Position numbers and translations under genes: made by a program. Below are positions 583 to 62,600 of a DNA stretch of 64,000 nucleotides, in pieces (position 1 is the first letter of the stretch; each line of letters starts with the position of its first letter). A model generated the notes under the pieces. It did not search any database. It was given only the letters and a program-made list of their open reading frames with translations, and was not told where the DNA came from. This DNA comes from Onthophagus taurus (taxonomy: Eukaryota > Arthropoda > Insecta > Coleoptera > Scarabaeidae): the NCBI RefSeq assembly GCF_036711975.1, contig NC_091971.1, positions 3,665,501 through 3,729,500 on the forward strand, written 5' to 3'.

Positions 583-732
583 GTTTCATCTAAACATGAT
601 GCGTCTGAAGATGCACGGCTAAACCCGAAACTTTCTAATTCTAGGTCTAGTGTTAGGTCTAGTTCAATATATAACATATTAATATCTTATACTAACTAGC
701 GTTATCTACCACTGCCACTAGAACTAACACTA
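583..732. repeat. Palindromic CTAG-rich repeat, left part
   Basis: One arm of the dispersed palindrome family (TGCGTCTGAAGATGCACGGC, then the TAAACCCGAA core and CTAGGTCTAGTGTTAG). It is preceded by ATATCAAGGTTTCAT, which matches in reverse the pogo-like terminus seen near 10,204. The start of a second arm (ACTAGAACTAACACTA, 717-732) is cut by the LINE insertion that follows and resumes at 2,124. Confidence 0.65.
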
Positions 733-2123
733 CATTACATTACATTACATTACATAGAATACATATCGGGTAGGCGGACCAACCAACCTTGCACCGCGAC
801 CCTAAGGATCTATTGTACCCCGATAGATATCGTTATCAAATTTCACCGTGCAGTCCAATGCTCTTAACGAACATTAATACCTTGCTCGGCGAAAGGTGAT
901 TCAGATCTTTTGAGGAGATAAACTGCGACCCAAAAATCGAGAATCTGATACGGTTAGCGGCAGGGCAGTGGCATAAAACATGCTCAACCGTCTCTGCTTC
1001 CTCCGCACATAGTCGGCATTCAACATCGTTGGCTAAACCCAACAAGTTGAGGTGTGCTTTTAATCGGCAGTGCCCAGTAAAAACACCCATTAGAACTTTT
1101 ATGCTACTACGGGCAAGTCCTAAAATATTCCCGGGTTTGACAGTGGCGATGTTAATAAACACCTTAGCATGTCTCATTCCAGGAGAACTGGTCCACAGTA
1201 GGCGAAATCTCTCTTCAGCCCACAGTCCAATCCTATATTTGGCCATCGCAAATGATACACCAACTGCTGGTTCCGGTCCCACAAACGCTTCAGTGCTGCC
1301 ATCTTGTGCTAGCTTATCTGCCGCTTCATTGCCAGCAACCCCAGAGTGACCCGGGACCCAGATCAGAGAGACTCTGTTATCACAACTCAGTGTGTTTAAT
1401 GTTCTCTTATAATCATTAACCAGAGCCGACACCGTTTTCACGGCTTGCAGCGCCTGGAGAGCGGCTTGACTGTCTGAGAAAATTCGTACTGTCATGTTCT
1501 TCACCCCTCTTTCAAGAAGGATTTTAGTACCCATGTCAATAGCAAATACTTCCGCCTGGAATAAGGTACAGTACGTACCCAGGCTGTAGGCTTGCTTAAT
1601 TCGAGGTGTCTGGCAGTATACTCCTGCTCCTACCCCTTCAGGCGTTTTTGATCCATCTGTGTACAAGCAAATGTCTGCCCGAACCAGAGAATTTTCATTT
1701 TCGATCCAGGACTGCCGCTCAGGCCGTACAATCTGTTATCGAGCATTAATCACTGATAGTGATACCGCCAAATCGGACGGCATTGATAGCACAGTATCAG
1801 TGCTTATAATGTCTTCCGCAGCCCATTGATAGGACATGTCGGAACAGTTTTGAGCATATTGCTTAAATCTGTAAATGGTTTTTCTAGCCACTTTCTCTAT
1901 ATGCAAATGCAGAGGAGATAGGCCAAGCAGAATCTCCATTGCTAGAGTTGGCGTTGTGCCTATCGCACCAGAGATTGCCAATCCAGCTACTTGTTGAATT
2001 CGTGAAAGTTTACTGATAACTGAAGTCTGTCGGACTTTCCTATACCAGGCTGCTGCTCCGTATGTGATCATAGGTCTAACCACAGTCACATAGAGCCAGT
2101 ACAATCTTTCAGGGGTAAGACCC
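733..2123 (-). mobile_element. 5'-truncated RNase H-bearing LINE (I/LOA/R1 group)
   Basis: Minus-strand remnant of a non-LTR retrotransposon. From about 2,123 to 1,739 it encodes the end of the reverse transcriptase (TPERLYWLYVTVVRPMITYG). From about 1,735 to 836 it encodes an RNase H domain (YTDGSKTPEGVGAGVY, SDSQAALQAL, WVPGHSGVAGNEAADKLA) and a C-terminal zinc knuckle (CRLCAEEAETVEHVLCHC). One stop codon near 1,736 separates the two parts in the same frame. A short 3' UTR ends in a TGTAA-type tail (733-754 on the plus strand). The 13-bp direct repeat AGAACTAACACTA flanks it at 720-732 and 2,124-2,136, a perfect target-site duplication. Only the last ~1.4 kb is present, typical of 5' truncation. 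Clade assignment is by domain order only. Confidence 0.9.
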
Positions 2124-2330
2124 AGAACTAACACTAGACCGAGAACTAGAAACATTCGGATTTAGCCGCACGTCTCTCAAGACGGCTAAACCCGATTGAT
2201 TCTAGATCTAGGTCTTGTGTTAGTTCTAGTGATAGTGCTAGTATAAAACTAGAACTAACACTAAACCTAGAACCTAGTGCGTCTGAAGACTTCTAGTTTT
2301 AGAGGTACAGCTAAACGGTACAACTAAATT
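2124..2330. repeat. Palindromic CTAG-rich repeat, right part
   Basis: Continues the palindrome interrupted by the LINE. It has an AGAACTAACACTAGACC arm, the GGATTTAGCCGCACGTCTC centre and the reverse arm, then a second unit after a short spacer (AGTGATAGTGCTAGTATAAA). The second unit is degenerate after about 2,280. Confidence 0.75.
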
Positions 2331-4795: not shown

Positions 4796-5245
4796 TGTGC
4801 GTCTAAAACGTACGGCATAACCCAAAAATTTCTAGTTTTAGTATTATTTCTAATGCTGAATGATTTAAATAAAAGTTAGGTTAAGTTGAGAAAAATGCAC
4901 AACATAATTTTTACAACGCAATAATAACTAATTACAAAAATTGAATGTACTTACTCTGCGTTAAAAACGGATCTTCCAGCTTCATTTAATGCGAAAATTG
5001 ATTAATATAATCGTGATAATTATTATAAAACTTTATCTTGATGCAACAAGTGATTTTTTTAAAGATGTCGGTGCTTATTGAGAAATCACCATGGTAACGG
5101 CAGATTGACAACTTTTGAACAAAAAATTATTTTAGTCAAAACATTTTCATATGAGTTTCATAGACTTTTCTGTCGATGTAACGTCTGTGATGCACGGCAT
5201 AACCCGAAATTTTCTAGGTTTCTAGTTTTAGTTTTATTTCTAACG
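4796..5245. repeat. Two decayed single arms of the palindromic repeat
   Basis: At about 4,798-4,860 and 5,185-5,240 a centre-to-arm half is seen (GTACGGCATAACCC or GCACGGCATAACCCGAAA, then TTTCTAGTTTTAG). Each lacks a matching left arm and has diverged from the consensus, so these are probably old solo halves. Confidence 0.5.
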
Positions 5246-10203: not shown

Positions 10204-10815
10204 CAATGAAACCTCGATATATTTTTATTGAACTAAAAGTAGAACTAAGAACTAGAACTAGAAGCATTCGGATTTAGCCGTACGTCTCTTAAGACGGCTA
10301 AACCCGAATGTTTCTAGTTCTAGTTTTAGTTCCACTTTTAGTTCAATAAAAATATACAAGAATCTAATGCTCAATAACTATTAAAACTAGAACTAACACT
10401 ATACCTAGAACTAGAATCATTTTGGTTTAGCCGTCTTTAGAGACGTGCGGCTAAACCCAAATGATTCTAGTTCTAGGTATAGTGTTAGTTCTAGTTTTAT
10501 ACTTGCACTCTCACTAGACGGATAAACTCGTATGATTCTAGTTCTAGGTATAGTATTAGTTCTAGTGAGAGTGTAAGTGTAAAACTAGAACTAACACTAT
10601 ACCTAGAACTAAAATCATTCGACTTTAGCCGTCTTTAGAGACGTGCGGCTAAACCCAAATGATTCTAGTTCCAAGTGTAGTGTTAGTTCTAGTAATAGTG
10701 CAAGTGTAAAATTAGAACTAATACTATACCTAGAATTAGAATCATTCGGGTTTAGCCGTCTTTAGAGACGTACGGCTAAACCCAAATGATTCTAGTTTTA
10801 GGTATAGTGTTACTT
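10204..10815. repeat. Cluster of palindromic CTAG-rich repeats
   Basis: Begins with a terminus-like AAACCTCGATATATTTTTAT and continues with a series of palindromes joined by short spacers (GTGCAAGTGTAAAA types). Each unit runs ACTAGAACTAACACTA, TACCTAGAACTAGAATCATT, a TTTAGCCG core, a GTCTTTAGAGACG centre, and the reverse complement. Four centres are visible, near 10,289, 10,440, 10,635 and 10,763. Neighbouring arms can also pair with each other. Confidence 0.85.
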
Positions 10816-10839
10816 TTACATATACAACAGATGTATTAA

Positions 10840-12190: not shown

Positions 12191-13859
12191 TTTTTTTATT
12201 ATTATTACTAAATTTAGGTAGGAATAGTAAAAGCGTTGGTGTGGTTTTGTAAAAGTGTAGACCTCGCTCCAAGACCTTTATAGATTTATAAAATATGCTG
12301 CCTTTGCACTTTCTCTCGACGTCGAGCTCCTCGACCGGGTGGCGCGTTCCAGGGAGAAAGGACCCCGCGCCTCCTCTGCCCCATCCGACGGCACTAAACC
12401 GATATCAGATCGTGTTGGACAGAGATTCAGCCCCCCGACGACCGCCCTTCCCCCATAACGGACCGATAAGTGTCCGTCGCTCCGACCTCGGCATACACGC
12501 GTCTCCCGTCTCTCATTAATATGCATAAATTGACACTGGGTCAACACCGGGGGCACCATTTGCTGCCGCCTCCACCCCCTTCGTATTAATGCAAAAAACC
12601 TTTGAATGCTAATATGTTGACACGGAGGCGGCTATTTGAACATGGAAATCGGCCCGGTCTGACCACGACTGACCAAAATTCGACCCGAAGGAGATTACGC
12701 CAACCGGCCCCAAAACGTATTTATGGGTTTGCGTTGCGGCTTGCCTGTCGGTGAAGCCCCCCGAAAACCCGCAGAGATAGTGACGTGTTTTATGCTTTTA
12801 ATTATAGGCGAACGAGCGCAGCCCCGCTTAATGCGATTTGATAAGCCGCTCGACCGTTTTCCAACCTACCATAGCAAAAAACGTGTTAAATCATACGTGT
12901 TTGAGCACGAAATCGCAATTGATTGTACCATTCCCTACTATGCGAACTTTTTGGAAAACCCCCCCCCATTAAAACACCACATTATTTCATCCCACTTAAT
13001 ATTTTATTACACAAAATAAACATCGAAATTGTCACTACATCGTAATATAACGTCTTTTTCATCGATAAATTTCTTTTCAACATCATCTCTTTCCAATCAA
13101 ACGATTTTAACTCATAAATTATAAGCGGTTAAGAGGTAGGGTATAAAATTATGGGGAATTTTCAGGATCCGCCCTTCGCGTGCCTCTACATAAAGTACTC
13201 GAAAATTGATTTTCAATTACCAGACGGAACCGCGGCGTGATGAAACGGGAAAAAGCTGGGGAGCACGTCCCGCACTCTCGAGACTTACCCCTCATCCCCC
13301 TTCATCTTCAATCAGCTGTGCTCAATCAGTAGCTTTCCGTGTGTTTTATGAAGTTATAAACACTGATTGCTCTGACTACAACACACAAACTACACTTAAA
13401 AAAAAGTTTTTGGTGATGAAGTTGAAAATAAAGATTCTAGGTCAAACTTATCTTATTATTATCTAAAGTTATTTAGAATCAAGACTAAAAATAGATTCAA
13501 AAATTCTGTTCAGTCTATGTTATTATATTGATTTAGAAAAGATATGCTTGGCATGTTGGGATGCCTAAATTCAGAAATTATTAGACACATCAATAGCTAA
13601 GATGCATATTAAAACTTACAATTTCAAGATTTCTATAATCGCGATAAGGAGCAGAGTCCCTCGTAAATAGTGAAGACTTATCGCAGCATATATGAGCTGG
13701 TAGCCAACCCATTTATCGCAGCTTTGAGCTTAGTATGAGCGATATGGATATTGACCAAAAATAGCCAAAGAATTTAATTTCGTAAATGTTTGGAAACGCC
13801 TAATTCAGTAATAAATGGGTAGCCAGAGTTATAGAAAATTTAATGCAAGTTAAAGATGT
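12191..13859. other. Intergenic with a GC-rich block
   Basis: A GC- and CpG-rich block spans about 12,250-12,850, with a shorter one at 13,220-13,320. Frames open on both strands at 12,278-12,559 mirror each other and show no domain. The rest is AT-rich. No gene supported. Confidence 0.35.
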
Positions 13860-15125
13860 AAAAGCTTCAAAAATCACTCTGTACTTATTTTTAAGAGTTG
13901 GATAATCATTTATGTGACAAATTGAAGATTGAACCTTCTATTTTAAGATGGTACATGGTATATAAGATGTTTGATTAAGAAAATTTTTAGAAAAAAGTGT
14001 TTGAGTTAATATTGTTGAAATTAGGTTAAGTTTGAAACTATACAAAAAGTTAAAGAGTTAGAAAAGGATTTATATCTCAAATTAAAGATTAAAGCTTCTA
14101 TTTTAATAGGGTATATGATACATAGTACGTTTGATTAAAAAAATTTTTAGAAAAAAGTGTGAAGAAATGTTGCTGAAATGATGTTAATTTTGAAAAAAGT
14201 AAAAATTTCATAAAATCACGCCAAGCTTATTTTTAATAGTTAATAAACGATTTATATCTCAAATTGAAGATCAAACCTTCTATTTTAAGTTGTTACATGG
14301 TCTATAAGATGTTTGATTAAGAAAATTTTTAGAAAAAATTTTTTGAAAAAATGTGCTTTGAATTAGGTTATGTTTGAAATCGTTAAAAAATCAAAAACTT
14401 TATAAAACTACTACGACCTTATTTTTAAGAGTTGGAACACGATTTATATCTCAAATTAAAGATTAAAGCTTCTATTATAATATGGTATATAATACATAGT
14501 ATGTTTGATTACAAAAATTTTTAGAAAAAAGTATTTGAAGAAATGTTGAAATTAGGTTAATTTTGAAAAAAGTAAAAATGTCATAAAATCATGCCAAGCT
14601 TATTTTTAAGAGTTAAGAAACGGTTTATATCTCAAATTGAAGATCAAACCTTCCATTTTAAGATTTTACATGATATATAAGATGTTTGATTAAGAAAATT
14701 ATTAGAAAAAAGTGTTTGAAGAAATGTAGTTAAAATTAGGTTAAGTTTGAAATTATGACAAAATCAAAAACTTTATAAAATTATGAGCTTATTTTTAAGA
14801 GTTAGAAAACGATTTATATCTCAAATTGAAGATTAAAGCTTCTATTATAATATGGTATATAATACATAGTATGTTTGATTAAAAAAAATTTTGGAAAAAG
14901 TGTTTGAAGAAATGTTGCTGAAATTAGGTTAATTTTGAAAAAAGTAAAAATTTCATAAAATCACGCCAAGCTTATTTTTAAGAGTTAAGAAACGATTTAT
15001 ATTTCAAATTGTATATTAAAGCTTCTACTTTAAGATGGTGTATGATGCATCGGCTGTTTTATTAAAAAAAATTATAGAAAAAAGTGTTTGAAGAAGTGTT
15101 GTTAAAATTAGGTTGTTCTCCTAAA
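13860..15125. repeat. Satellite array, about 183-190-bp monomer
   Basis: Roughly seven diverged tandem copies. The motif TTTATATCTCAAATTGAAGA (or close variants) recurs near 13,909, 14,069, 14,251, 14,443, 14,624, 14,813 and 14,996. Each copy also has TTTGATTAAGAAAATTTTTA, AAAAAAGTGTTTGAAGAAATG and a GCTTATTTTTAAGAGTT block. The monomer is close to nucleosome-repeat length. Confidence 0.9.
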
Positions 15126-16589
15126 ATTAGAGTTAAAATAGGATAGTGATGAAAATAAATGGAAAGCTTTTTTCAGGAAGCTGGAAATATAAAAGAAACA
15201 CCAAAAAGGTTTAACAAATCCTGTTATACATCCTCCCTTAGAACTGCACAAGTACCTGATGTAACCATAATCTTGCATGCGGGAGTATATGTTTTCTTTT
15301 CAGGATATGTGCAATTTTAGTATTATAGGCCAGTGAAGAACGATCGATTTTCTTTCGGTTCCAAATCAGGCCAAAGCCCTCTAATCTATCGGCGCTTGTA
15401 CCGGGTCAATTGAAACGGTGGGGTGACTCTCACAAAACGGGGCGAAAAGCTTCTGTTCCCAAAAAGGGCTTACTTTACACTACTAGGGTAAGGTTAAGGT
15501 TGCAACAAAAAAACCTTAATTAATTAATTAATTATAATACATCAACTTCTCGTTATTATTTCTCCTTAATAATATTTCATAACATAATACAAATTGCTTT
15601 ATTTCTCTTTGCAACAATGTTGTTTGTAGTGGACAATAGAGCGTTTCATTCATTTGGTTTTTATGTATGTATTGTTTATCAACGTGGAGTGATGGTGGTG
15701 TGTCCACGTGTATTTGTACTTCCGTAGGTATTTCGCTTTGAGTATGTGTGTGTTAGGAAAGGGTACTCCGTTGACAAGGTGACATGAAACGTCGAATCAG
15801 CATTCCCGGTGTTGGCTGGTGGCCCCCCTTTGTGCGTGGTCACCCCGCCGCACCGTTTTCCGACACGGGAAAAGCGCCCGTAGATGGCGCAACGATCGCA
15901 TGCGCCGTTTGTAACTGTACACCCAGACGAAAGTGGCGCGCGAGGCGTCGAGGAAATTACGTCAGCGTTATATTAACCGTTCTCGGTTAATTTTTTTACG
16001 TGGAAAACCACCACCCAACGATAAATAGTATTATATTATATTCCAGTTGTTACAATGTATCAGTATTTTAAACAAAAAAAAAAGAGATGAAAGTCGTTTC
16101 TTGGAATATTATAATTAGAAATAAAGCCGTGATAATATGAAGAAAAATTGTATGGAAGAAATAAATACTTAGTTTGATATAAAAAAGAAATACTATGTTA
16201 GAATGATAATCTTTTTTGTTACTCTACTTAAGTTTCATTGTGATTCTTTTTTTGTTTAAATGTGTGCGTTAAGCAAAAATGAATAAATCCAGGCGCGAAA
16301 TGTGGCGTTTTGTTTATGGTAATTTAATGTTTCATCAGGTCAATAACCAACCCGATTAATAATAATTGCGCAGTATTTATGTACCTACTTATTTTATTTG
16401 ATTTTTTTTTCATTATTAAAAAAGAATTTTTCTCATTTTTATATATTATTTTATGCAAGTGGATAAGATTTAGTAAAATATGTAGTTGCATTGTGTTGCC
16501 AAAGGTTGACAAACTTTTTGAACCTTAGTTGATGATTAAGTGCTCGAATCCGCGGGATTCCCCCATGAAGACGACATAATATCAACAGA
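15126..16589. other. Intergenic, no gene seen
   Basis: AT-rich sequence separating two different satellites, with a GC-richer block at about 15,720-15,970 and a CACGTG E-box near 15,704. The 68-codon open frame at 15,784 overlaps the block and has no recognisable domain. Confidence 0.35.
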
Positions 16590-18935
16590 GGTACTCAAAA
16601 ACTAAAAATAAAGGAGAAAGAGATTGTGCATATAAATTACTTATTATGATCTATAAAGTCATAATTAATATCCAGAAATAGCTCAGTTCTGACCATATTC
16701 TAGTTGGAAAGTGAAAATCCCCAGAATATCAAAATTGATGATTTTGGTTATTAAATCCAATCCTAACTCAAAAACTAAATGCGATAAAGAAAAAGGGTTT
16801 CAACATAAATTGCTCATAATAAGCCATCAGATTAAGCTTAACTATACAAAGTTTGTATTTAAAAATTGTGAATTGTCAAAATATGAGAATTGTTGATTTT
16901 CGTTAATAAAGTGGATCATAACTCAAAACCTAAAAGTTATAGAGAAAAATATTGTTCATAGAAATTGTTTATTATGATCTATAAAGACATAATTAATACC
17001 CAGAAATAGTTCAATTATGGCCATATTGTAATTAGATAGTGAAAATCCCTAGAATATCAAAATTGATGATTTTTGTCATTAAATCCAGTTAATTCAAAAA
17101 CTAAAAGCGACAGAGAAAAATGACTTGGACATAAATTACTCCTAATAAACCAAAAAGGCATAATTCATAATTAAATTAAGATTAATTATAAACATTTTTA
17201 GTTAGAAATTGTAAATTACCAAAATATGAAAGTAGTTAATTTCCGTTAACAAAGGCGATTAGAACTCAACAGCTAAACGTAATGGCGAAAAATTTGTGCA
17301 TAAAAATTGTTTATTATGATCTAAAAGATAAAATTTATATCCAGATCTAACTCAACTATAAACGGATTTTAGTTAGAACGTAGAAATGGCCAAAATTGAC
17401 GGTTTTGGATAATAAGTTCAGTCCAAACTCAAAAATTAAAAGTAATGGAGAAAAATATTTTGCATATAAATTACTTATTATGATCTATAAAAACATAATT
17501 AATATCCAGAAATGGTTCAATTATGAAAATATTCTAGATAGGAAGTGGAAATCCCAAAAATATCAAAATTGTTGGTTTTCGTTAATAAAGTTGATCATAA
17601 CTCAAAAACTAAAGGTAATGGTGAAAAATATTGTACATATAAATTGTTTATTATGATCTAAGAAGACATAATTCATATCCAGAAATAACTCAGCTATAAT
17701 CATATTCTAGTTAGAAAGTGAAAATCGCCAAAATATCAAAATTGACGATTTTCATCATTAAATTCAATCCTAAATCAAAAATTAAAAGTAATGGAGAAAA
17801 ACTTTGTACTTACAAATTGTTTATTATGGTTTAAGAAGACATAATTCATATCCAGAAATAGTTCAGTTATTACCATATTCTAGTTAGAAAGTGGAAATCC
17901 CCAAAATATCAAAATTGATGATTTTCATCATTAAATTCAATCCTGACTCAAACTTTAAAAGTAATGGAGAAAAATGTTGTACATATAAATTGTTTATTAT
18001 GATTTAAGAAGACATAATTCATATCCAGAAATAGCTCAGTTATGGCCATATTCCAGTTAGAAAGTAGAAATCGCCAAAATGTCAAAATTTATGGTTTCAA
18101 GACTAAATTCAGTTTTAACTCAAAAACTAAAAACGATAGAGAAAAATGATTTGGATGTAAATTGTTTATAATAAATCAAAAATATATAATCCATAATCAG
18201 ATTAAGCTTATTTATAAAAAAAATTTTGTTAGAAACTGTAAATCGCCAAAATATGAAAATTGTTGATTTTCGTTAATAAAGTTGATCATAACTCAAACAC
18301 TAAAAGTAATAGAGAAAAATATTATGCACATAAATTGCTTATTATGATCTGTAAAAACATAATTAATATCCAGAAATGGTTCAATTATGACCACATTCAA
18401 GTTAGAAAGTTAAAATCCCCAAAATATCAAAATAGACGATTTTCATCATTAAATTCAATCCTAAATCAAAAATTAACAGTAATGGAGAATAACTTTGTAC
18501 ATACAAATTGTTTATTATGGTTTAAGAAGACATAATTCATATCCAGAAATAGCCCAGTTATTACCATATTCTAGTTAGAAAGTGGAAATCGCCAAAATAT
18601 CAAAATTGACGATTTTCATCATTAAATCCTAAATCAAAAATTAAAAGTAATGGAGAAAAATTTTGTACTTACAAATTGTTTATTATGGTTTAAGAAGACA
18701 TAATTCATATCCAGAAATAGCCCAGTTATTACCATATTCTAGTTAGAAAGTGGAAATCGCCAAAATATCAAAATTAATGGTTTCAAGATTAAATTCAATC
18801 TTAACTCAAAAACTAAAAACGATAGAGAAAAATGATTTGGATGTAAATTGTTTATAATAAATCAAAACGATATAATTCATAATCAGATTAATCTTAACTA
18901 TAAAAATTTCTTGGTTATAAATTGATTTTTATGGC
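16590..18935. repeat. Satellite array, about 170-bp monomer, two monomer classes
   Basis: About 14 tandem monomers. The common class contains TTTATTATGATCTAAGAAGA, CATAATTCATATCCAGAAAT and CATATTCTAGTTAGAAAGTG. A second class, near 16,810, 17,150, 18,180 and 18,860, has instead AATCAGATTAAGCTTAACTA and a GTAAATCGCCAAAATATGAA-like end. Second-class monomers fall two, six and four monomers apart, an irregular higher-order arrangement. Apparent 61-91-codon frames inside it come from the repeat. Confidence 0.9.
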
Positions 18936-37200: not shown

Positions 37201-40200
37201 AATAGAATTTAAATTTGATATAAACACAAATTATATAAACATTTTTTGAACACATATTTAAGATGTCTTCTTTTATTTTGTAGATAACACTAATTAATTA
37301 CTAGATTATCCATATTATTCTGACCTTTAGTATATAAGTTATCTCCAACATAAATCAAATCTAATTCAATTTTTAAACATAGCATTAATTAAAATTCCGT
37401 GTTACTCATTTTTCAAAAACAATTATACTTGCATTAGTAACATAATAATGTAAGGTAAAATGAGACAATTAAAATTTTTCTTTGAAACGGAGTGCGTACA
37501 TTTAAATTTGTCATTTTAAATATTCAATTATTTAAAAAAGAAAGGGAGTAATTCAATACAGAAACCTCAATATATTTCCTTTCACTATCAGGTCATTCAC
37601 CAAAACCACAAAACGAAAAAACCAACGACAAAGAACACTGTGTTAAATTAAAACGGAGTTGATAACGAAAAAAATTAAAAAATTTACTTGGTTTTTTGTG
37701 GTTTATTTTTCGAATTAAATAAAATAAATTCAAACTAAAAATATTCGGGTTTAACCGTGTGTCTTTTAAAGCGGCTAAATTTGAAACTTTCTAGTTCTAC
37801 TGTTAATTCAATAAAAATATGCTACAAACTGGCGCTGAATAACAATTAAAACTAGAACTAACACTAGACCTAGAACTAGAAAGTTTCGGGTTTAGTCGTG
37901 CGTCGTTAGACGTGTGTTAGTTCTAGTTTTACATTAGCACTAGAACTAACACAAGACCTAGAACTAGAATCATTCGGGTTTAGCCGTCTTGAGAGACGTG
38001 CGGCTAAATCCGAATGTTTCTAGTTCTAGATCTAGTGTTAGTTCTAGATTTAATTGTTATTTAGATTGTGGTATATTTTTATTTAGCGAAAACTAGAATT
38101 AACACTAGACCTGGAACTAGAAACGTTCGGGTTTAGCCGTGCGTCTCCAGATTATTTGTAATGATAAAAGTTTACGTGTATAGGTTGAGAGTCACCTGTA
38201 TATACAACGTCATACAGCTTAAAGTATTAGAAAATAAATTCTTAGAAAATTACAAAACAAATTGCATTCTTTTTGTATTTGTTATGTGAGAATATATCTT
38301 ATCTTAAAACTTATCGTATTTCAAGTTCAAACCCTATGATGTTATTCAATTACATTCGCCGTTGCTTACAAACTGAAAATCAAATTGTCATGAGAGCTAA
38401 TGGAGACACGTCTGGCGGGCTTCCGCACATGTTAATGTCAAATTCAGGGGTTGAAATATTACAACAACTAGATGTTTTACGACACAAAACGCAGGTAAAT
38501 TAATTCCATTAAAAAAAAAAGTATTCGATTTAATACTTTTTTAATATTTATTTTAGGAAACTGGCGAAAAAGTACGATCGATGGAAAGCGAACAAGAAGC
38601 TTTTGCTTTACATTATCATGAATGTACAAAAATTAATGGTTCGTTTTATTTATTTTTTTTTCTTATTTTAAACATACACGTTTAATTTAATTATTTTTTT
38701 AGCTCAAATTCAAGAACATCAAAGTCAACAACCCGTTTCAAGTCATTTACAACAGCTTCAATTGAGAAAAACCAACATGGAAATGCAATTAAGCGAAAAG
38801 GTACTTGTAAACATTTACAAAAAATGATAACATTTACAAATAATTTGTTGACGTAGATTGCACATTTGGTACAAGTTCGAATGGCTTTAATAGACGATTT
38901 AAAGAAAACGGTTCAATTACTTTCAAAAGTTCAATCGATGGTATTGGACGATGAATTAATCCGCTGGAAAAGGGAACAACAATTGGCGGGAAACGGCGCA
39001 GTTTTTAATGGAAATTTAGATACCATTCAAGAATGGTGCGAATGTTTAGCCGAAAATATTTGGATTACTCGTCAACATTTAAAAGATATTGAAAGATTAA
39101 AACAAAAATTGAATTTGGAGTCACCAGGAGGTGCTGATATGCTTCCTCAGTTACTCAGTGAAGTAACACAAATTTTAAGCGCTTTGGTTACATCTACTTT
39201 TATTATTGAGAAACAACCACCGCAAGTTATGAAAACAAATACGCGGTAAGTATTTAAAAAATTTAAAAATCCTATAGTTATTATATTTATATTTTTTTTA
39301 ATAGATTTACATCAACAGTACGTTTATTAGTTGGTGGAAAATTAAATGTAAACATGACTCCCCCTCAAGTAAAAGTCACAATAATATCAGAATCCCAAGC
39401 TAACGTTTTATTAAAAAGCGATAAATTAGCGAAAAATGGCGAAGCAAGCGGAGAAATTTTAAACAACACTGGAACTATGGAATATCAACAGGCTAGCAGG
39501 CAATTGTCGGTAAGCTTCCGGAATATGCAATTAAAGAAAATAAAACGTGCTGAAAAGAAGGGTACTGAAAGCGTCATGGACGAGAAATTCTCGTTGTTTT
39601 TCCAATCGCAATTTAGCGTCGGCGGCGGTGAATTAATGTTCCAAGTGTGGACGTTATCTCTTCCGGTGGTTGTAATTGTTCACGGGAATCAAGAACCGCA
39701 CGCTTGGGCTACTGTTACGTGGGATAACGCGTTTTCTGAACCCGGACGTCCACCATTTGCCGTTCCGGATAAAGTACCGTGGAATAAAGTCGCAGAAATG
39801 TTATCGTTAAAGTTCAGATCGACGACTGGACGATCTCTAAACGAAGATAATTTACGCTTTTTGGCGGATAAAGCTTTCCGCGGTTCGTTTACCGATAATA
39901 ATCAGCTATTGTCTTGGTCCCAATTTTGTAAAGAACCTCTAAGCGAGAGGAACTTTACATTTTGGGAATGGTTTTATGCTGTTATGAAATTGACAAGGGA
40001 ACATCTTAAAGGACCTTGGGTTGAAGGGTAATAAAAAATTAATTTTATTTTTTATTATTAATTTATTTTTATTTTTGTTAGGCTTATTTTGGGATTTGTT
40101 CGTAAAAAGGATGCTGAAGATATGTTGCAGAGGTTAACATCTGGAACGTTTTTGTTAAGATTTTCTGATAGTGAATTAGGAGGAGTTACTATTGCTTGGG

Positions 40201-43200
40201 TTTCAGGTAATGATTTTCAAAATAATATCAAAATAAAGTTTGTTAAAGTTCAGTTTTCATTTTGTAGAAAATTCTGAAGTTTTTATGATTCAACCATTCA
40301 CATCAAAAGATTTTGCGATTCGATCTTTGGCTGATCGGATAAAAGATCTTCAACACCTTAGCTTTTTGCACCCAAACATTTGCAAGGAAACCGCTTTTAT
40401 GAAATATTATACTCCTGGTAAGTTATTATTACAGAAAAGTATTACCAAAGTATTACATTTAATACATTTTCACTTACACTTCTTTAACTGATTTCATTTG
40501 GGTTACTGCTGCTCATTTTATGGGGACCTTGGATATGTCTTGCTCACTATGGCTCTGTGTTAAAATCAAAACTGTGTTCTCGCTTTGATTTTATCATTGG
40601 TATAGCAGATATAAGAGTAAAATCCTCAGTCTCTATGAAAAGATTTCTTTCTCTTTGATCAATTGAGCAGTAATGACATTAAAGATTAATGACATTGAAG
40701 TTTGAACTTGTCGCTTTAGGCAACGTTCTTAAATTTCCAATTTACCGCTTTACATCAATTTGAAATTATGAATTCGCTTCGAAATCTTGTTTTTGACGTT
40801 TTAAATATCTTGGAATTTGACGTTTGACGTTCGAAATGAATGTTTGAATTTAACGATTTAGATGAAACTTTGATTTGAAGTTAAAATTGACAATTTATTC
40901 AACAATTTGAACTTGTCGTTTTAGGCAACGTTCTTAAATTTTCAATATGCCGCTTTATGTCAATTTGAAATTATGAATTGATCGCTTCGAAATCTTGTTT
41001 TTGACGTTTTAAATATCTTGGAATTTGACGTTTGAGGTTCGAAATAAAAGTTTGAATTTAACGATTTAGATGAAACTTTGATTTGAAGTTAAAAATGACA
41101 ATTCAACAATTTGAAGTTGTCGCTTTAGGCAACGTTCTAAAATTTCTAATATGCCGCTTTATGTCAATTTGAAATTATGAACTAATCGCTTCGAAATCTT
41201 GTTTTTGACGTTTTAAATATCCTGGAATTTGACGTTTAAGGTGCGAAATGGAAGTTTGAATTTAACGATTTAGATGAAACTTTGATTTGAAGTTAAAAAT
41301 GACATTTCAACAATTTGAACTTGTCGCTTTAGGCAACGTTCTTAAATTTCGAATTTGCCGCTTTACATCAATTTGAAATTATGAATTGATCGCTTCGAAA
41401 TCTTGTTTTTGACGTTTTAAATATCTTGGAATTTGACGTTTGAGGTGCGAAATGAGAGTTTGAATTTAACGATTTAGATGAAACTTTGATTTAAAGTTAA
41501 AAATGACAATTCAACAATTTGAACTTGTCGCTTTAGGCAACGTTCTAAAATTTCTAATATGTCAATTAGAATTTTGTCAATTTGAAATTATGAATTAATC
41601 GCTTCGAAAGCTTGATTTTGACGTTATAAATATCTTGGAATTTGACGTTTACGTTTCAAAATTAATGTTTAAATTTAACGATTTAGATGAAACTTTGATT
41701 TAAACTTAAAAATGACAATTCAACAATTTGAACTTATCGCTTTAGGCAACGTTCTAAAATTTCTAATATGCCGCTTTACGTCAATTTGAAATTATGAACT
41801 AATCACTTCGAAATCTTGATTTTGACGTTTTAAATATCCTGGAATTTGATGTTTAAGGTGTGAAATGAAAGTTTGAATTTAACGATTTAGATGAAACTTT
41901 GATTTGAAGTTAAAAATGACAATTCAACAATTTGAAGTTGTCGCTTTAGGCAACGTTCTAAAATTTCTAATATGTCGCTTTATGTCAATTTGAAATTATG
42001 AACTAATCGCTTCGAAATCTTGTTTTGAACGTTTTAAATATCTTAGAATTTGACGTTTAAGGTTCGAAATAAAAGTTTGAATTTAACGATTTATGTAGAT
42101 GAAACTTTGATTTGAAGTTAAAAATGACAATTCAACAATTTGAACTTGTCGCTTTAGGCAACGTTCTTAAATTTCGAATTTACCGCTTTACATCAATTTG
42201 AAATTATGAATTAATCACTTCGAAAGCTTGATTTTGACGTTTTAAATATCTTGGAATTTGACATTTGTGGTTCGAAATAAAAGTTTGAATTTAACGATTT
42301 AGATGAAACTTTGATTTGATGTTAAAAATGACAATTCAACAATTTGAACTTGTCGTTTTAGGCAACGTTCTAATATGCCGCTTTATGTCAATTTGAAATT
42401 ATGAATTGATCGTTTCGAAATCTTGTGTTTGATAGTTTTAGATGAAACTTTGATTTGAAATTAAAAATCACAATAGTTTTTTTGTGTAATTAAAATAATA
42501 ATATATAGTCCGCGTTAAAAGTAGCCAGACCACTTGTCTAATTTGAAAACGTTGAAAGTTGTCAATTCATTGACAGTTTAGCATAGAAAATACATATTAT
42601 CAGTCTTATGACTACTTAAAGAAACGTGAAAGGTATGGTTTCTGGGCAACGTTCAACTTTATTTCCTTAAAACCGGGAAATGGGTTGGTTACCGCATCTT
42701 AAGTGAGGTTGCTCAGGTTATAGTTAGAATTGGATACTTCAATTGTAGCGCCTCGGGCGCAATCTGCCTTGGCTAAAATCATCTCAGTTGCCAATCAACG
42801 ATAACGCTTCGTGGCCTTGACACATAAATAATTATTTATCCTTATTTTGATTACTATACATATTACATTTCTTTATTTAACTTTGTTTTTATTTCCATCA
42901 GATAATCATCAAGTTTCGTCTACAAATGGTTACGTAAAACCTTCATTAATAACGCAGGTACCTCCCATGTACACTGGATACCAAAACACGCCCCAACACT
43001 CTTTTATGCAATCGCCAGATCCTTCTAGGGACACCCCTTCGGTGGTGAGCAGGTAAGATTTTTTTGGTTGTATTTCGATTTTATAGGTGTGTTGTATCTA
43101 CTAAAAAAATCGATTAAGCAACTTTATTGATTTTGAAGTGTTTTTATTAAATTTTTTCTTTTATTAAAAAGTTTCTTAATTGATTTATAATTTCAGCAAT

Positions 43201-47850: not shown

Positions 47851-49334
47851 TTGATTTATTTATTTACACCTTTGTTTATCTAATAATATTTTCTTATTAT
47901 TATAGACTAGATGTATGTATTAGGCTACCGAACATTATACTATGTATATTTGGTTGCCTAACTCTCAAAAAATGGTTTAAACCGAAATCTTCTCATCTTA
48001 TAGATCATTTGAAGTACTCCTTGGGGGGCTATTTACTAATATTAGTGTGATTTCAGCAAGTAAAATCATTTAACTCTGGCCTTAAGCGAGTTTCAAGACG
48101 AGGGGAACCCCATAAAGTTACTGCAACAAATAGTTCCAACTTTCAAAATATCTTAACAGGAAAAAACCATTGGGCAAAAAAATTGCAACGAGGCGCCGAA
48201 AATCTTGTGTAAGATTTATGTGTTAGGAAAAATATACAAGTTGCCCTCACAACACTCTGGAAGATAGAGATGTCATCACCGATTTATTTAATTCCAAGCT
48301 CACTCCACAAACACTTTTCAAGATTAATGAATCACAGTTTAATATGGCAATTCGTAAATAACTGATAAAATGTGATGTTATAAGTCATAAAATTATCTCT
48401 TCAATCAATTTGAGCCATTTTGACACACACCAACAAGTTTTTTCTATTTTTTGACATCTTAGAAACACCTTCAAAAAACATTATAGTAAATATCATCGAT
48501 TCTTTTACCTTGCTTAAGTGTTCTAGAGATATTATTAGTCAATTAAAACCATTTTAATTCACACCAAGCAGTTTTATTAATCTTTTAAATTTTCTGGAAA
48601 ACATCTCCTTTGCTAAAGAATCTCTAAACAAGAGAAATACCAAGATAAATAAGTCGTACTCTTATTGAGGTATAAATCGTAAAAACCCTACTCTCCAATT
48701 CTCAACGTGAAGAGAGACGAGGAAAATAGAAGCGAAGTGAGCAACGTTGCCAGATCGTTGGTCGCCCATCTCATTTCAATGGCAAAGATAGATTTGCTAA
48801 GCTGTAATGGTTTTAATTGTTATCTTCAATTTAGCTCTTCATCGTGTGATAGCTAAAGGGTCAAAATCCTTGTATTAGGTGTTTGCTATTTATTAATACC
48901 ATACCAAATGCGTTGCAAAATTTAATGGATATGTTGATTAAAACTTTTAATACTCAAAATAAGAGTTATTATTTGAAAAAATTTATTTCTTTCAATTCGT
49001 TAGTTCATTTTTATTCGATCACCCTGTATAACAAAATTTAATAACGAGAACAAACTTTCCCCCCTAATATATTAATTAAAACTAATCGGAACTCAAATAC
49101 AATTCCAATTTATTTTTGGAATTTCAACAAATTTTCTAATAATATATATATTTATTTACTTAGAGGTAGCAATATTATTAATTTAATAAATCACAACGAA
49201 ATTAAACTATCTAAAAAAATAATTGGTAATAATCTAGGATGGTAGAATTTAAAATGACTGCTACATCCTTTGTTCTTTTAAAATCCAGAAAATATCAGAA
49301 CCAATACATCATACCAATTAGTTGTTAATAACCC
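47851..49334. other. AT-rich intergenic, no gene seen
   Basis: No coding sequence or clear repeat recognised. Confidence 0.4.
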
Positions 49335-49545
49335 AAATGTTTTTAGTTCTAGCCCTGAATGCCAATTCAAAGTAGAATTAACACTAGATTTAGATCACAC
49401 TAGAATGTATCTCAAAAGATACATTCTGGCTTAGTTCTAACACTAAAACTAACACTACACCTAAAACTAGAAACATTTGGGTTTAGCCGCACGTCTCTTA
49501 AGACGGCTAAACCCGAATGTTTCTAATTCCGGGCTTAGTGAATCG
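49335..49545. repeat. Palindromic CTAG-rich repeat (left of 420-bp array)
   Basis: A decayed unit (49,340-49,430) with ATTCTGG in place of the usual core, followed by a good palindrome with ACATTTGGGTTTAGCCGCAC and TCTCTTAAGACGG at the centre near 49,495. It immediately adjoins the 420-bp repeat. Confidence 0.8.
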
Positions 49546-49549
49546 AAAA

Positions 49550-50235
49550 TTAGTGATTCATAAATATTACGGTAGATAATTAAACAATGTGTAAAATGAG
49601 TCCAAACTCGGCATATTTAGGTGTTATAATACCCAAGATACATCTATTTTTATAAAAACAAGATGGCCGAAAACAAAACACTAATAAATTGTGTCATTTA
49701 TGCATATAATCGTGAATTTAATGATAAATATAGGGTGTGATACATCAAATTAGGTTAGAATTTTCTGATCTTTACAAAACTCTTATTCTTTTCGATTTTT
49801 ATGAAAAGTTAAATAAATGATGGTTTTATTAAAAAAAATTAAAAATTTTCAATCTTTATGAACAATTTTTTGCAATGAATATAACCGGCGACGTATTTTG
49901 TTATAAAACATTGTGAGATATTTTGATTTTTAATTTTTTATAAAATCCAAGATGGCCGAAAATTGGTGATTCGTAAATATTACGAAAGATAACTAAAAAA
50001 CGTGTAAAATGAGTACAAACTCGACATATCCAAATGGTATAACACCAGAGATATCTTTGTTTCTGTAAAATCAAGATGGCCGAAAACAAAACACTAAGCA
50101 ATTATGGTTTTATGCTTTTAAAAGTGAACTTTATGATAGATATAGAGTGTGATACATCAAATTAGGTTAAAATTTCCTGATCTTTATGAAAATCTTAGGG
50201 ATTTTTAATAATTTTTGAATTTTTAAATCGATTAC
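49550..50235. repeat. Tandem repeat, about 410-420-bp monomer
   Basis: About 1.6 copies. CAAGATGGCCGAAAACAAAA recurs at about 49,660 and 50,080, and AGGGTGTGATACATCAAATT or its variant at 49,732 and 50,142. The same family occurs inverted in the CadN intron at 60,535. Confidence 0.85.
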
Positions 50236-50446
50236 GATTCGCACGCGTGTTAGTTCAATAAAACAATAATATACAGTAATATAGCACTGAATCAAATTTA
50301 AAATTAGAACTAACACTAGACCTAGAACTAGAAAGTTTCGGGTTTAGTCGTCTTAAGAGAAGTGCGGCTATACCCGGTTTAGTGTAAGTTCTAGCAGCAA
50401 AACTAACACTAAACCTGGAACTAGAAACATTCGGGTTGGGTTACGG
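50236..50446. repeat. Palindromic CTAG-rich repeat (right of 420-bp array)
   Basis: Starts with GATTACGATTCGCACGCGTG and TTAGTTCAATAAAACAATAA, then a palindrome with centre near 50,352, then a solo left arm (AACTAACACTAAACCTGGAA) that stops at the border of the foldback element at 50,447. Confidence 0.8.
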
Positions 50447-54510: not shown

Positions 54511-56002
54511 CTTCAGGTGCAGCTTCGGAAGGTTCAGGAGCTGCTGCACCTTCTCCATCGGTTGTAGGTGGTTCTGTTGTAGCCGTTTCAGGTTTTTCAC
54601 TTAAATCTTGCGCTTGAACTTGTACCTCTTCACTTGCTGGTTCAGCTGGGCTTGGTGGAGCCGCTGTTGGTTCAGCAGGAGCATCTGCAGGTTTATCTTT
54701 AGCTGCTTCTGAAGCTTTTTCGGTGGCTTTATCTTTCGCGTCTTTCTTCGAACCAACCGGAACGAACAATCTGTATTCAGAAGGCATTTCATCTTCGCTA
54801 TAAAGACGATCGGCGAAATATATCCTTCGGATGCGAACGTTTGCGTGAACTTGAATGCGCATCGTTTCCAAGTAAAGAGTACCATAAGCTCGGCGAGTGA
54901 AATCGGCCAAATTAAATTGGATTTGATTCCAACCACAACTTAATCCAATTGGCATCGTCGTGCAAAAGGGACGAACTTTCGTCGTCGACTGAAAATTTGA
55001 CACTCTAAATCTTCGATGCATATCCTTATCATCTGTTAATTAATAGATATTTGGATTTAAATTGAAAAAAAAGAAATAAATGGTATTAAATAATAAATAA
55101 ACCTAAGATTTGTATCTCAAAACTGAAATATTTCTTCATGTTTTTGACGATCATTACTAAAAATGGTAATCTGATCGCAAGTGAGGCTCTTGGTTTTATC
55201 GGGCATGTTATGTAAGTTGTTGCAACGTTGGTTCCTGATATTTCTAGAACTAGAGATTTGACTTCATCGTCGACTACACGTCTGATGTGACCATTTTTTA
55301 CCTGAAATAAAAATGTTCTTAAATCTCATTCATTGGTAAAAAGAAGTATTAATGGGCGCATTGAGAGAAAAATGTCTCCCGGCATACACCATCCGGAATA
55401 CTAAAAGGTAGAAAATGCTCCTTTTGCATTATTAAAGTCGTCTATTCCCCCGAAAAAGATCGATACCAGACCGTATTCCCCAAATTTTTCACCCTCACCT
55501 CTTCAACCGAAATCAAATATTTATTATAATCATTTTTTTAACGTTTTCAACACTTTATATTTTATACTTTATTATAAACTTGAAAATTAGTCTCGTAAGT
55601 TGGAGTAAAACCTCGATACAAGGGAATTTGTTAGAACGGATATAACATTTTTCATTGAACTAAAACTAGAACTAACACTAGATCTAGAACTGGAAAGTTT
55701 CGGGTTTAGCCGTGCGTCTTCAGACGCACGGCTACGAGACGTTTTAATTATTACTCAGCATTGATTAACTTAACACAACGGTATAGATAGCTGCCAGACG
55801 TTGTGTTGATTCAAATGATTCAATTAACAGACTTTTGGCTATAACAAACACTTTTTCGCCCATATTAATCCCTTATATCGAGATTTTACTGTATTTGACT
55901 TTTATTTGAAAAACTTACTTGTTTGTCCCAAATATTTAATGGACTAGAGCCGATACTATAAAAAACCGTGATAAAACCACTTTGGAATGCGTTCGCAAAC
56001 AT
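54359..56002 (-). CDS. CFAP20: CFAP20-family ciliary protein with repeat tail
   Basis: Three coding exons (55,919-56,002; 55,103-55,301; 54,359-55,032) give 318 residues, against about 190 for typical CFAP20/Bug22. Residues 1-187 are a full CFAP20 domain: [71 protein letters not shown] and [20 protein letters not shown]. The family is a microtubule inner protein of cilia and flagella. Residues 188-318 are an added acidic, Ala/Pro/Glu-rich tail ending in five decapeptides of the form [10 protein letters not shown]. Divergence in the core (GLSCGWNQ in place of LDDGWNQ) plus the tail suggest a diverged, perhaps testis-type paralogue. The first intron holds a palindrome element. Confidence 0.9.
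55602..55893. mobile_element. Pogo/Tigger-like MITE carrying the palindromic repeat
   Basis: The left end AGTAAAACCTCGATACAAGG and the right end, read in reverse as CAGTAAAATCTCGATATAAG, form inverted repeats of about 20 bp. A TA follows the right end. The class resemblance to Tigger/JRK-type ends (CAGTAgAACCTCGATTA) is from memory. Inside lies one palindrome arm, AACTAGAACTAACACTAGAT, and a perfect centre GTGCGTCTTCAGACGCAC; the second arm is missing. It lies in the first intron of CFAP20. Confidence 0.6.
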
Positions 56003-59617: not shown

Positions 59618-62600
59618 ATGAGGGAGTTGTTTATATTGGCCTTTTGGGCTTTCAGTATATTAACCGTTTCAGCGGAAACTGTCTCGGTGATTCCCCACGA
59701 TGCTCATCCAGGATATAGCGTTAAAATGTTCCAAACGAACGATACCACAAATTATAAACTTATGGAAACGGGATTTAATCAATTCTTTACCATGCTTCAA
59801 GACGGCTCGGTGATGACCATCTCCGATTTAACACCTTTGGTCAATAGACCTATCGATCTTATGATTTTGGCTGAAAATTCTAATCATTCCACAACCACCC
59901 ATCTACTTCAATTATACGTTTTGGATCGAAAAAATATGGTCACCTTTAAAATTGATCCATCGGAAATTTCAGGTTTGTTTATTTATTATTTCATGAATCA
60001 TCATTGCTTGTGTATAAATCGGGTTTAAAATATCCGGGTGGTTTGTTTTGACATCGATGAAACTTTGTAAACTTCTTAACGCGAAGAATTCTTGAAGTTA
60101 ACTCTGTTGCAATCTTTTCAAAACAAGTTTGCAATTACAGTATAACCTCAATATAATGGATCGTTCTAATGTTAGAGTTAGTTCCAGCTTTAGTTGCTAT
60201 TCAGCATCAGATTTTTGTATATTTTTCATTGAACTAAAACTAGAACTAACACTAAACCTAGAACTAGAAACATTTGGGTTTAGCCAAACGTCTCTTAAGA
60301 CGGCTAAACCCAAATGTTTTTAGCTCCAGGTTTAGTGTCAGCTTTGCTGTTAGAACTAAAACTAGAACTAACACTAGACCTAGAACTAGAAACATTCGAA
60401 ACTTTCTAGTTCTAGGTCTAGTGTTAGTTCTAGTTTTAATTGTGACTCAATACTAGGTTGTTGCATATTTTTATTGAACTAATACCTGTGCGAATCATAA
60501 TCGATTTAATAAAAAAAATTAGTTAAAAAAAATCAAAAATATTGAAATTTATTAAAAATCCATAATATTTTCGTAAAGATCAGGAAATTTTAACGTAATT
60601 TGATGTATCACACTCTATATCTATCATAAAGTTCACTTTTAAAAGCATAAAACCATAATTGTTTAGTGTTTTGTTTTCGGCCATCTTGATATTACAAAAA
60701 CAAAGATATCATGGATATGTAGGGTGTTATACCATTTGGATATGTCGAGTTTATACTCATTTTACACGTTTTTTAGTTATCTATCGTAATATTTACGAAT
60801 CATTAATTTTCGGCCATCTTGGATTTTAAAAAAATTAAAAATCAAAATATCTCGGAATGTTTTATAGCAAAATACACCGCGTTTACGTTCATTGCAAAAG
60901 ATTATTCATGAAGATTTAAAATATTTAATTTCCTTTTAATTAAAACAACAACATTCACTTAATTTTTCATAAAAATTAAAAAGAATAAGATTTTCGTAAA
61001 GATCAGAAAATTCTAACCTAATTTGATGTATCACACCCTATATTTATCATTTAATTCACCATTATATACATAAATGACACAATTTGTTAGTGTTTTGTTT
61101 TCGGCCATCTTGTTTTTATAAAAATAGATTTATCTTGGGTATTACAACACCTAAATATGCCGAGTTTGGACTCGTTTTACACATTATTTAATTATCTACC
61201 GTAATATTTACGAATCACTAATTTTCGGCCATCTTGGATTTTATCAAAAACGTCAAAATCAAAATATATCGTAATTTCACAACAAAGTACGTCGCATTTA
61301 GATTCATTTAAAAAAATGTGTTCGTAAAGTTTAAAAACATTTAATTTTATTTAATTAAAACAACAACATTAATTAAATCTTACATAAACATCAAAAAGTA
61401 TAAGACTTTCGTAAAAATCAGAAAATTCTAACCTAATTTGATGTATCCCACCCTATATTTATCATTTAATTCACGATTATATGCATAAATGACACAATTT
61501 ATTAGTGTTTTGTTTTCGGCCATCTTGTTTTTATAAAAAATGTAAAAATCGAAATATCTCAGGAAGCTTAATAGCAAAATAGGTCGTGTTTGGACTCATT
61601 TTAAAGGATTTTTCATGACGATTAAGAATATCACTAAATTAACGCATCCCGTCCTAATTTGCTTCCATTAAAGTTATTGATATATTATTTTTTTTTAATT
61701 TTCAGGTCATATACAAGAAAATTCTCCAAGAAAAACTCGCGTAAGTGGCCTTCCGATGCTTCAAGCGACAACAGGAGCAAATCTCCCCATAGCTTATAGC
61801 ATAATCGGTGGAAACACAAATTTGGCTTTCGAACTTCAAAATAGTGCGACTTTAGAAGTTGCACCTAACATAACCGCAACGGATTTCGCCGGGGTTTATA
61901 TAGTTTCTTCTCAGCCGATCGATAAAGAAGATTTAGACAGATACGTTTTGACAATCGAAGCGTCCGATCCAAGTGGAATCAATAAAGCAATCACGAATGT
62001 TGTTGTTGAAGTCGATGATGAAAACGATAATAGTCCGGTTTTTACCCAAAAAATTTATAGGTTCGTTATGGGGGAAGATCCGGATAATGTAACACTTTGG
62101 AAACGATTTTCATCAATAGGAAAAGTTGAAGCGACCGATGCAGATGGCGATAAAATTGCTTATAGATTAGCAACACCCTCTAATTACATCGTAATTGTTC
62201 CGCAAACCGGCGATCTTCTTTTAACGGAAGAACCAGAAGAAGAACTCGATTTAGAACTTGTCGTTGAAGCTCACGATTTAAGAACACCGAGTAGAACTAC
62301 ACCGAGACCTGCACAAGTTTTGTTTCATTATCGGCCGCAAGCTAAAGTTTTAGATTTAGATCTTCAACCTTTAGAAGAAGAACACGATTTAAAAAGAGTT
62401 AAAAGAAGAGTTACAAGAGCTGTACGTCCCACGAAAAGAATAGAGTTTACAGAACTTGATGGAGATTCCGAAGGTCGAAGTGTTTTTCAATTAGAAAAAG
62501 AAACGGAAAGAGAAACATTTAAGATTAGAGATGAAAACGCTTGGGTTACCGTTGAACCAAACGGTTCAGTTCGCGTGAAGAAGAAGTGGGATTATGAAGA

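Follow-up and report, generated by a model that had tools for sequence, protein, structure and literature searches.

The palindromes that recur in the window, a 64-kb stretch of DNA (C6:3665501-3729500) from a genome of 290,825,966 bases in 33 contigs, are copies of a dyad-symmetric, satellite-like repeat that has probably been spread, at least in part, by a non-autonomous cut-and-paste transposon. The first-pass annotation of this sequence had described palindromic units at about nine loci, with arms built from short iterations, as a dispersed, palindromic and apparently non-coding family. This description holds. The short sub-iterations of the arm are visible in the sequence, and searches of the window with an arm 25-mer (up to 3 mismatches) and with the exact dyad core returned 19 and 7 matches, respectively, against 0 for each in 100 dinucleotide-preserving shuffles. 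The arm matches form nine clusters, at 615-662, 2124-2273, 5194-5242, 10233-10818, 37852-38140, 49443-49540, 50305-50437, 55666-55713 and 60240-60433. The entry 583-732/2,124-2,330 corresponds to two loci, and 4,796 and 5,185 are half units only. The features of the window are given below.

615 to 662, minus strand: half unit with one arm that ends near the dyad centre (arm match).
2122 to 2229, plus strand: dyad with two arms and a 12-nt polar centre, core 2161-2190 (DNA fold -34.7 kcal/mol, z -11.1).
2249 to 2273, plus strand: partial arm (arm match).
4812 to 4866, no strand assigned: degenerate half unit, a 62% member of repeat family D13 that the arm search missed.
5194 to 5242, minus strand: degenerate half unit (arm cluster search).
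10252 to 10323, plus strand: dyad whose arms match over 30 nt, core 10273-10302 (arm and core match).
10336 to 10393, plus strand: spacer module between dyads that recurs in many other clusters (91% match).
10387 to 10494, plus strand: dyad, core 10426-10455 (DNA fold -48.7 kcal/mol, z -16.1).
10518 to 10565, minus strand: half unit without a partner arm (arm match).
10585 to 10692, plus strand: dyad, core 10624-10653 (core match and DNA folding).
10712 to 10819, plus strand: dyad, core 10751-10780 (core match).
10518 to 10812, plus strand: tandem array of 2.3 copies with a period of 127 bp (Tandem Repeats Finder, score 457).
37852 to 37895, plus strand: arm (arm match).
37940 to 38047, plus strand: dyad, core 37979-38008 (core match and DNA folding).
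38093 to 38140, plus strand: half unit that ends at the dyad centre (arm match).
49443 to 49550, plus strand: dyad adjoining a host repeat of the 415-bp type, core 49482-49511 (core match).
50305 to 50437, plus strand: two arms adjoining the same 415-bp host repeat as the dyad at 49443 (arm match and flank comparison).
55603 to 55891, plus strand: candidate short element with inverted pogo-like ends and one arm at 55666-55713 (TA before the right end only).
60138 to 60485, plus strand: cluster that opens, next to TA, with a pogo-like end (TA before this end; dyad 60240-60347).
60357 to 60438, inside the preceding cluster: coreless palindrome with 41-bp arms and 2 mismatches.

The palindrome family is very widespread in the genome and is no regional peculiarity. 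A genome-wide search with the consensus arm, proposed in the first-pass annotation, found that copy number is not restricted to this region. The arm 30-mer (up to 3 mismatches) gave 17,006 + 16,942 = 33,948 matches (control, 0), and the exact dyad core, whose pattern is self-complementary so that both strands report the same sites, gave 9,554 (control, 1). A 20-mer of core plus centre had 1,150 + 1,086 exact matches genome-wide (control, 0), and the 612-bp query at least 365, with 40 of 4,933 candidates scored. Exact cores number 7 in the window against a genome-wide mean of 2.1 per 64 kb, an above-average content that agrees with the unusual density that had been noticed. The domains encoded in the window mark the genome as that of an animal, probably an insect; the telomere-type TTAGG repeat gave 3 overlapping matches at one internal site and 11 in the reversed control.

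In the repeat unit, two arms of about 48 bp enclose a 12-nt polar centre, and a linker of 19-23 bp completes the unit; dyad units occur both as singles and as tandem arrays with a period of about 127 bp. The sampled sequence contains 740 arms, including 270 facing pairs. In the 206 dyads whose arms are complete and ungapped, CTTTAGAGACGT (n = 44) and its complement ACGTCTCTAAAG (n = 43) are the most frequent centres; since the centre is asymmetric, each dyad has a direction. The outward gap to the neighbouring dyad is 19 bp in 109/267 cases and 23 bp in 47/267. The lengths of arms, centre and gap (48+12+48+19) thus account for a period of 127 bp, which is the period both of 10518-10812 and of a long array, C1:1845420-1846582, that advances in 127-bp steps. 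Arrays of a few kb are present among the matches listed. Tandem head-to-tail organisation, with this period of 127, and homogenisation inside arrays were both observed, as in satellite DNA. Many clusters are tandem arrays that repeat at close to 127 bp. As had been proposed, adjacent units have several possible pairings, and the family does not behave as a simple two-ended MITE. Four window dyads were folded as single-stranded DNA, with predicted energies of -28 to -49 kcal/mol and z scores of -16.1, -10.2, -14.2 and -11.1; 0/200 shuffles equalled these folds.

To follow how the units multiply, 201 dyads were oriented, and arms were compared at loci with at least 3 dyads (179 dyads). Identity was 0.908 among proximal arms and 0.894 among distal arms, but 0.848 between a proximal arm and the distal arm of another dyad. 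Proximal and distal arms are thus each more alike among themselves, which indicates amplification as whole, ordered units. Arms from the same locus are 0.857 identical and arms from different loci 0.825. Partner arms are 0.8444 alike compared with 0.8404 after re-pairing within the locus (sd 0.0013), where 1/500 permutations reached the partner value; re-pairing across loci gave 0.8366, and 0/500 permutations reached the partner value. Without orientation, the per-locus means are 0.834 for partners and 0.838 for non-partners. The correlation between partner arms is small but real; for the most part, the two arms form distinct lineages that are copied jointly. This is the behaviour of a tandem repeat, unlike that of a helix under selection. 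The marginal likeness of partner arms (84.4 vs 84.0%) therefore argues for ordered tandem multiplication and gives little support to a conserved RNA hairpin.

The flanks of the palindromes were analysed in twenty 10-kb stretches around exact 20-mer matches in the first 2.34 Mb of C1, a non-random sample, and then in further stretches. Flank modules recur across the twenty stretches, and many dyad copies sit in the middle of a non-coding carrier element. Its full order is a left end CAGTGAATTTCACTTAAGATGC, usually a pogo-like module CAGTAAAACCTCGATATAACGG, dyads with spacers, and a right end that reads CCGGGAATTTCATATAACTCGC inward from outside. The left end is marked by CAGTGAATTTCAC and the right end by CCGGGAATTTCAT. 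The carrier has diverged terminal inverted repeats of about 100 bp; left and inverted right ends are about 65-70% alike over about 90 bp, and the extreme tips differ (CCGGG on the right, CAGTG on the left). A place outside known transposon biology is not supported for the family, part of which lies inside this element with inverted repeats at its termini and TA on either side. End 36-mers (up to 3 mismatches) matched 233 + 282 = 515 times for the left end and 249 + 234 = 483 times for the right end genome-wide, with 0 matches for the reversed controls. With about 500 copies of each end, in nearly equal numbers, the carrier itself is a successful family.

The TA flanks were scored in rows whose match starts at end base 1 or 2 with at least 85% identity. 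TA precedes the left end in 30/30 rows. These rows represent 29 distinct places, since L059 and L064 coincide; a duplicated flank is common to L052 and L056. It precedes the right end in 24/27 rows, or 22/25 when the three rows of the L061 tandem duplication are counted once; the exceptions are L021 and L043 (TT) and L071 (TG). Among the rows that failed this filter are left ends read by eye as TT in L057 and TG in L030, and others with TA in L047, L062, L066 and L067. Among 13 complete copies of 371-4,966 bp, a count that excludes L064 and L069 (no right-end coordinate) as well as L030, L060, L062, L066 and L067, 11 have TA on both sides, while L043 and L071 lack it on the right. A duplication longer than TA fits badly (CATA vs TATG in L029). 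Duplication of a TA target site is a trait of the Tc1/mariner superfamily, and the flanking TA and the inverted ends point to mobilisation of Tc1/mariner/pogo type, as judged from sequence. When joined host flanks were compared with the sampled sequence, no empty site was found; only the left flank of L032 was repeated, without its right flank. Complete copies of 371-767 bp, short and non-coding with inverted ends, and the approximately 500 ends of each kind conform to a MITE. Other complete copies reach 4,966 bp, some of them enlarged by nested insertions, and the number of dyads varies among complete copies bounded by the same ends. The left ends of L036, L037 and L039 have a different outer sequence in common, TGGCGGGAGTTTTAAAACCAGAGAGG, which is perhaps a second left-end variant or an insertion into one host repeat. 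The L-R-R-R order of L061 was considered as rolling-circle read-through and rejected: its repeated right ends share a host flank, which indicates local tandem duplication. C1 accounts for 38 of the left-end matches listed (515 genome-wide), with 24 at 0-10 Mb, 3 at 10-31 Mb and 11 at 31-44 Mb; among the matches listed, the central third of C1 looks poor in carrier ends.

A Tc1/mariner/pogo-type transposase acting in trans probably moved the TA-flanked carrier. After insertion, unequal exchange or replication slippage would have added or removed internal dyads in whole, ordered units, and loss of the ends would then have stranded many arrays, including those of the window. The palindrome itself would be cargo without a demonstrated role. 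In a partial search that covered sampled carrier copies and their relatives, neither an autonomous partner nor a DDE/D transposase with carrier ends was found. Long carrier copies contain other transposons. In L044, a hAT dimerisation domain (27.4 bits against a cut-off of 21.4) is enclosed, as judged by eye, by an 8-bp duplication. A reverse transcriptase is present in L063 (41.3 bits, cut-off 29.6), and L065 has a reverse-transcriptase match just below the cut-off (28.7 vs 29.6). The nested insertions in L044 and L063 indicate that carriers are ordinary host DNA of some age. A DDE_1 fragment with stops (33.2 bits, cut-off 22) begins in L064 at the TTA that usually opens the pogo-like module. 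This Tigger-like fragment was rejected as the autonomous partner: its closest relative, C6:805512 (L073), is 73% identical and has ends of its own, flanked by TA and separated by 2.1 kb, so that the L064 fragment is most likely a nested insertion, to judge by sequence. One end of L073 starts CAGTAATACCCCG and resembles the L064 start CAGTATTACCCC; we term the module pogo-like because it resembles the relative's end CAGTAAAATCTCG. A different nested repeat at L064:437-3232 has inverted ends and a tandem unit of about 456 bp, with long tandem runs on C5, C16, C6 and others, and is perhaps a second transposon-borne satellite.

Many clusters have no recognisable carrier. Of 49 clusters from the window and the twenty C1 stretches, each 300 bp or more from the sequence edge, a left end is present in 5, a right end in 10, both ends in 3 and a pogo-like start in 7. 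In 33/49, and in 8/9 of the window clusters (the exception, at 55,666, is pogo-like), there is no carrier end or pogo-like start. Most cluster flanks have nothing in common; 46/103 outward flanks fall into similarity groups, and the largest group, with 31, mixes carrier modules with other links. Either carriers lose their ends quickly, or arrays spread by other routes too. It is conceivable, if unlikely, that short satellite arrays spread alone, by extrachromosomal circles, gene conversion or segmental duplication, and that a TA element captured one and carries a minority of them. The 33 clusters without an end fit such an origin. Loci 50,236 and 60,225 were moved by duplication of host DNA: they have in common one junction with a 415-bp host repeat, which implies that they are not independent insertions on that side, and their outward flanks are 89% identical. 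L061 is likewise a tandem duplication of a carrier half with its host flank. However, both carrier ends are present in about 500 copies, in near-equal numbers, and the sample of 49 clusters is small and non-random, with ends that may be too decayed for detection. We consider it improbable that the palindromic unit is mobile in its own right, in which case end-less arrays would be dispersed without the carrier, for instance by way of hairpin or circular intermediates, the carrier would be one of several vehicles, and dyad symmetry would be favoured as an aid to spread.

The dyad or half unit could also be a foldback-type transposon with the palindrome arms as terminal repeats. Foldback elements with tandem subrepeats are known, and some clusters stop at the dyad centre as they would at a terminus (615 and 38140 in the window, L015 and L012 elsewhere). 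This origin is nevertheless doubtful, as the 124 unpaired inner ends lack one common sharp boundary by eye, many run on into other modules of the family, and none has a recognised target duplication. In addition, the palindrome repeat does not make up the carrier ends, and end-less clusters have no defined terminus. Retention of the palindromes for a hairpin RNA, such as a source of small RNA, is very unlikely. The predicted hairpins are strong and partner arms exceed re-paired ones, but this excess of 0.4 percentage points may come from the proximity of arms inside arrays, the per-locus values without normalisation run the other way, and an Rfam search of the window at gathering scores gave no match. 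Central tandem repeats, together with a hairpin beside the right end, recall Helentron-type rolling-circle elements (HINEs; PMC4067079, PMC7492417). These elements insert at T-rich or TT sites without duplication and have subterminal inverted repeats of 12-15 bp (PMC4067079). The inverted ends of about 100 bp and the TA on both sides speak against this identity for the carrier; it was rejected on these grounds, and we give it almost no weight. A non-autonomous carrier moved by a Tc1/mariner/pogo-type transposase is thus the reading we prefer.

Satellite repeats carried by non-autonomous transposons have already been documented, which likewise speaks against a place outside known transposon biology. 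The closest known systems are the TCAST transposon-like elements, Tetris and Cg_HINE. TCAST-like elements of Tribolium castaneum occur as short arrays without ends and as complex elements that have terminal inverted repeats as well as target duplications (PMC3411249). They resemble the present family in their euchromatic satellite-like copies, two classes, hairpin potential and the lack of an assigned partner. By their description they are set apart, with the satellite within inverted repeats of about 269 bp and an ACT duplication, whereas here the satellite is internal and the flanks are TA. Tetris/TIR-220 of Drosophila virilis is likewise non-autonomous and foldback-like, its internal tandem repeats seed satellite-like arrays and no autonomous copy was found, but it has 220-bp non-palindromic repeats in its inverted repeats and 8-10-bp duplications, and is assigned to Mutator (PMC4079207). 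The dispersed satellite-like arrays of Cg_HINE in Crassostrea gigas are also central repeats of non-autonomous mobile elements, although the carriers are Helentrons without TA duplication (PMC7492417). TmSat2 of Tribolium madens has a monomer with large internal dyad symmetry as well, but this monomer is 704 bp long and occupies megabase (peri)centromeric regions, compared with about 127 bp in short scattered arrays here (PMC13081366). In a literature search that covered few subscription papers, some sources in part, no TA-flanked carrier of a palindromic satellite was found. A text search of the literature did not find GAACTAACACTAG or CCGTCTTAAGAGACG; two other sequence words occurred only in papers unrelated by title. 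miDNA4 of Xenopus is reportedly a MITE with an internal satellite that expands.

In this family, a repeat of strong dyad symmetry rides in the interior of a TA-associated transposon, and the case is clear and countable. The repeat far outnumbers the carrier ends (33,948 arm matches vs about 500 of each end, at differing stringency), and it provides a workable system for how transposon cargo turns into satellite DNA. It also raises the question of what tens of thousands of predicted hairpin-formers near genes entail.

Other repeats were observed in the window. The 415-bp repeat has palindrome fragments on both sides at 49330-50437 and on one side at 60177-61557, and its copies at 49.3-50.4 kb and 60.2 kb are mutually inverted; with the bordering palindromes, it possibly forms one larger composite element. 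Tandem arrays at 16570-18920, 40701-42487 and 13829-15155 have periods of about 173, 204 and 181-192 bp, respectively, and are unrelated to the palindromes by eye. A non-LTR retroelement remnant with RNase H and zf-RVT domains lies at 836-2161 on the minus strand, and its open frame continues into the palindrome at 2124. Open frames of the window include Maf, STAT, mitochondrial carrier, CFA20 and cadherin domains.
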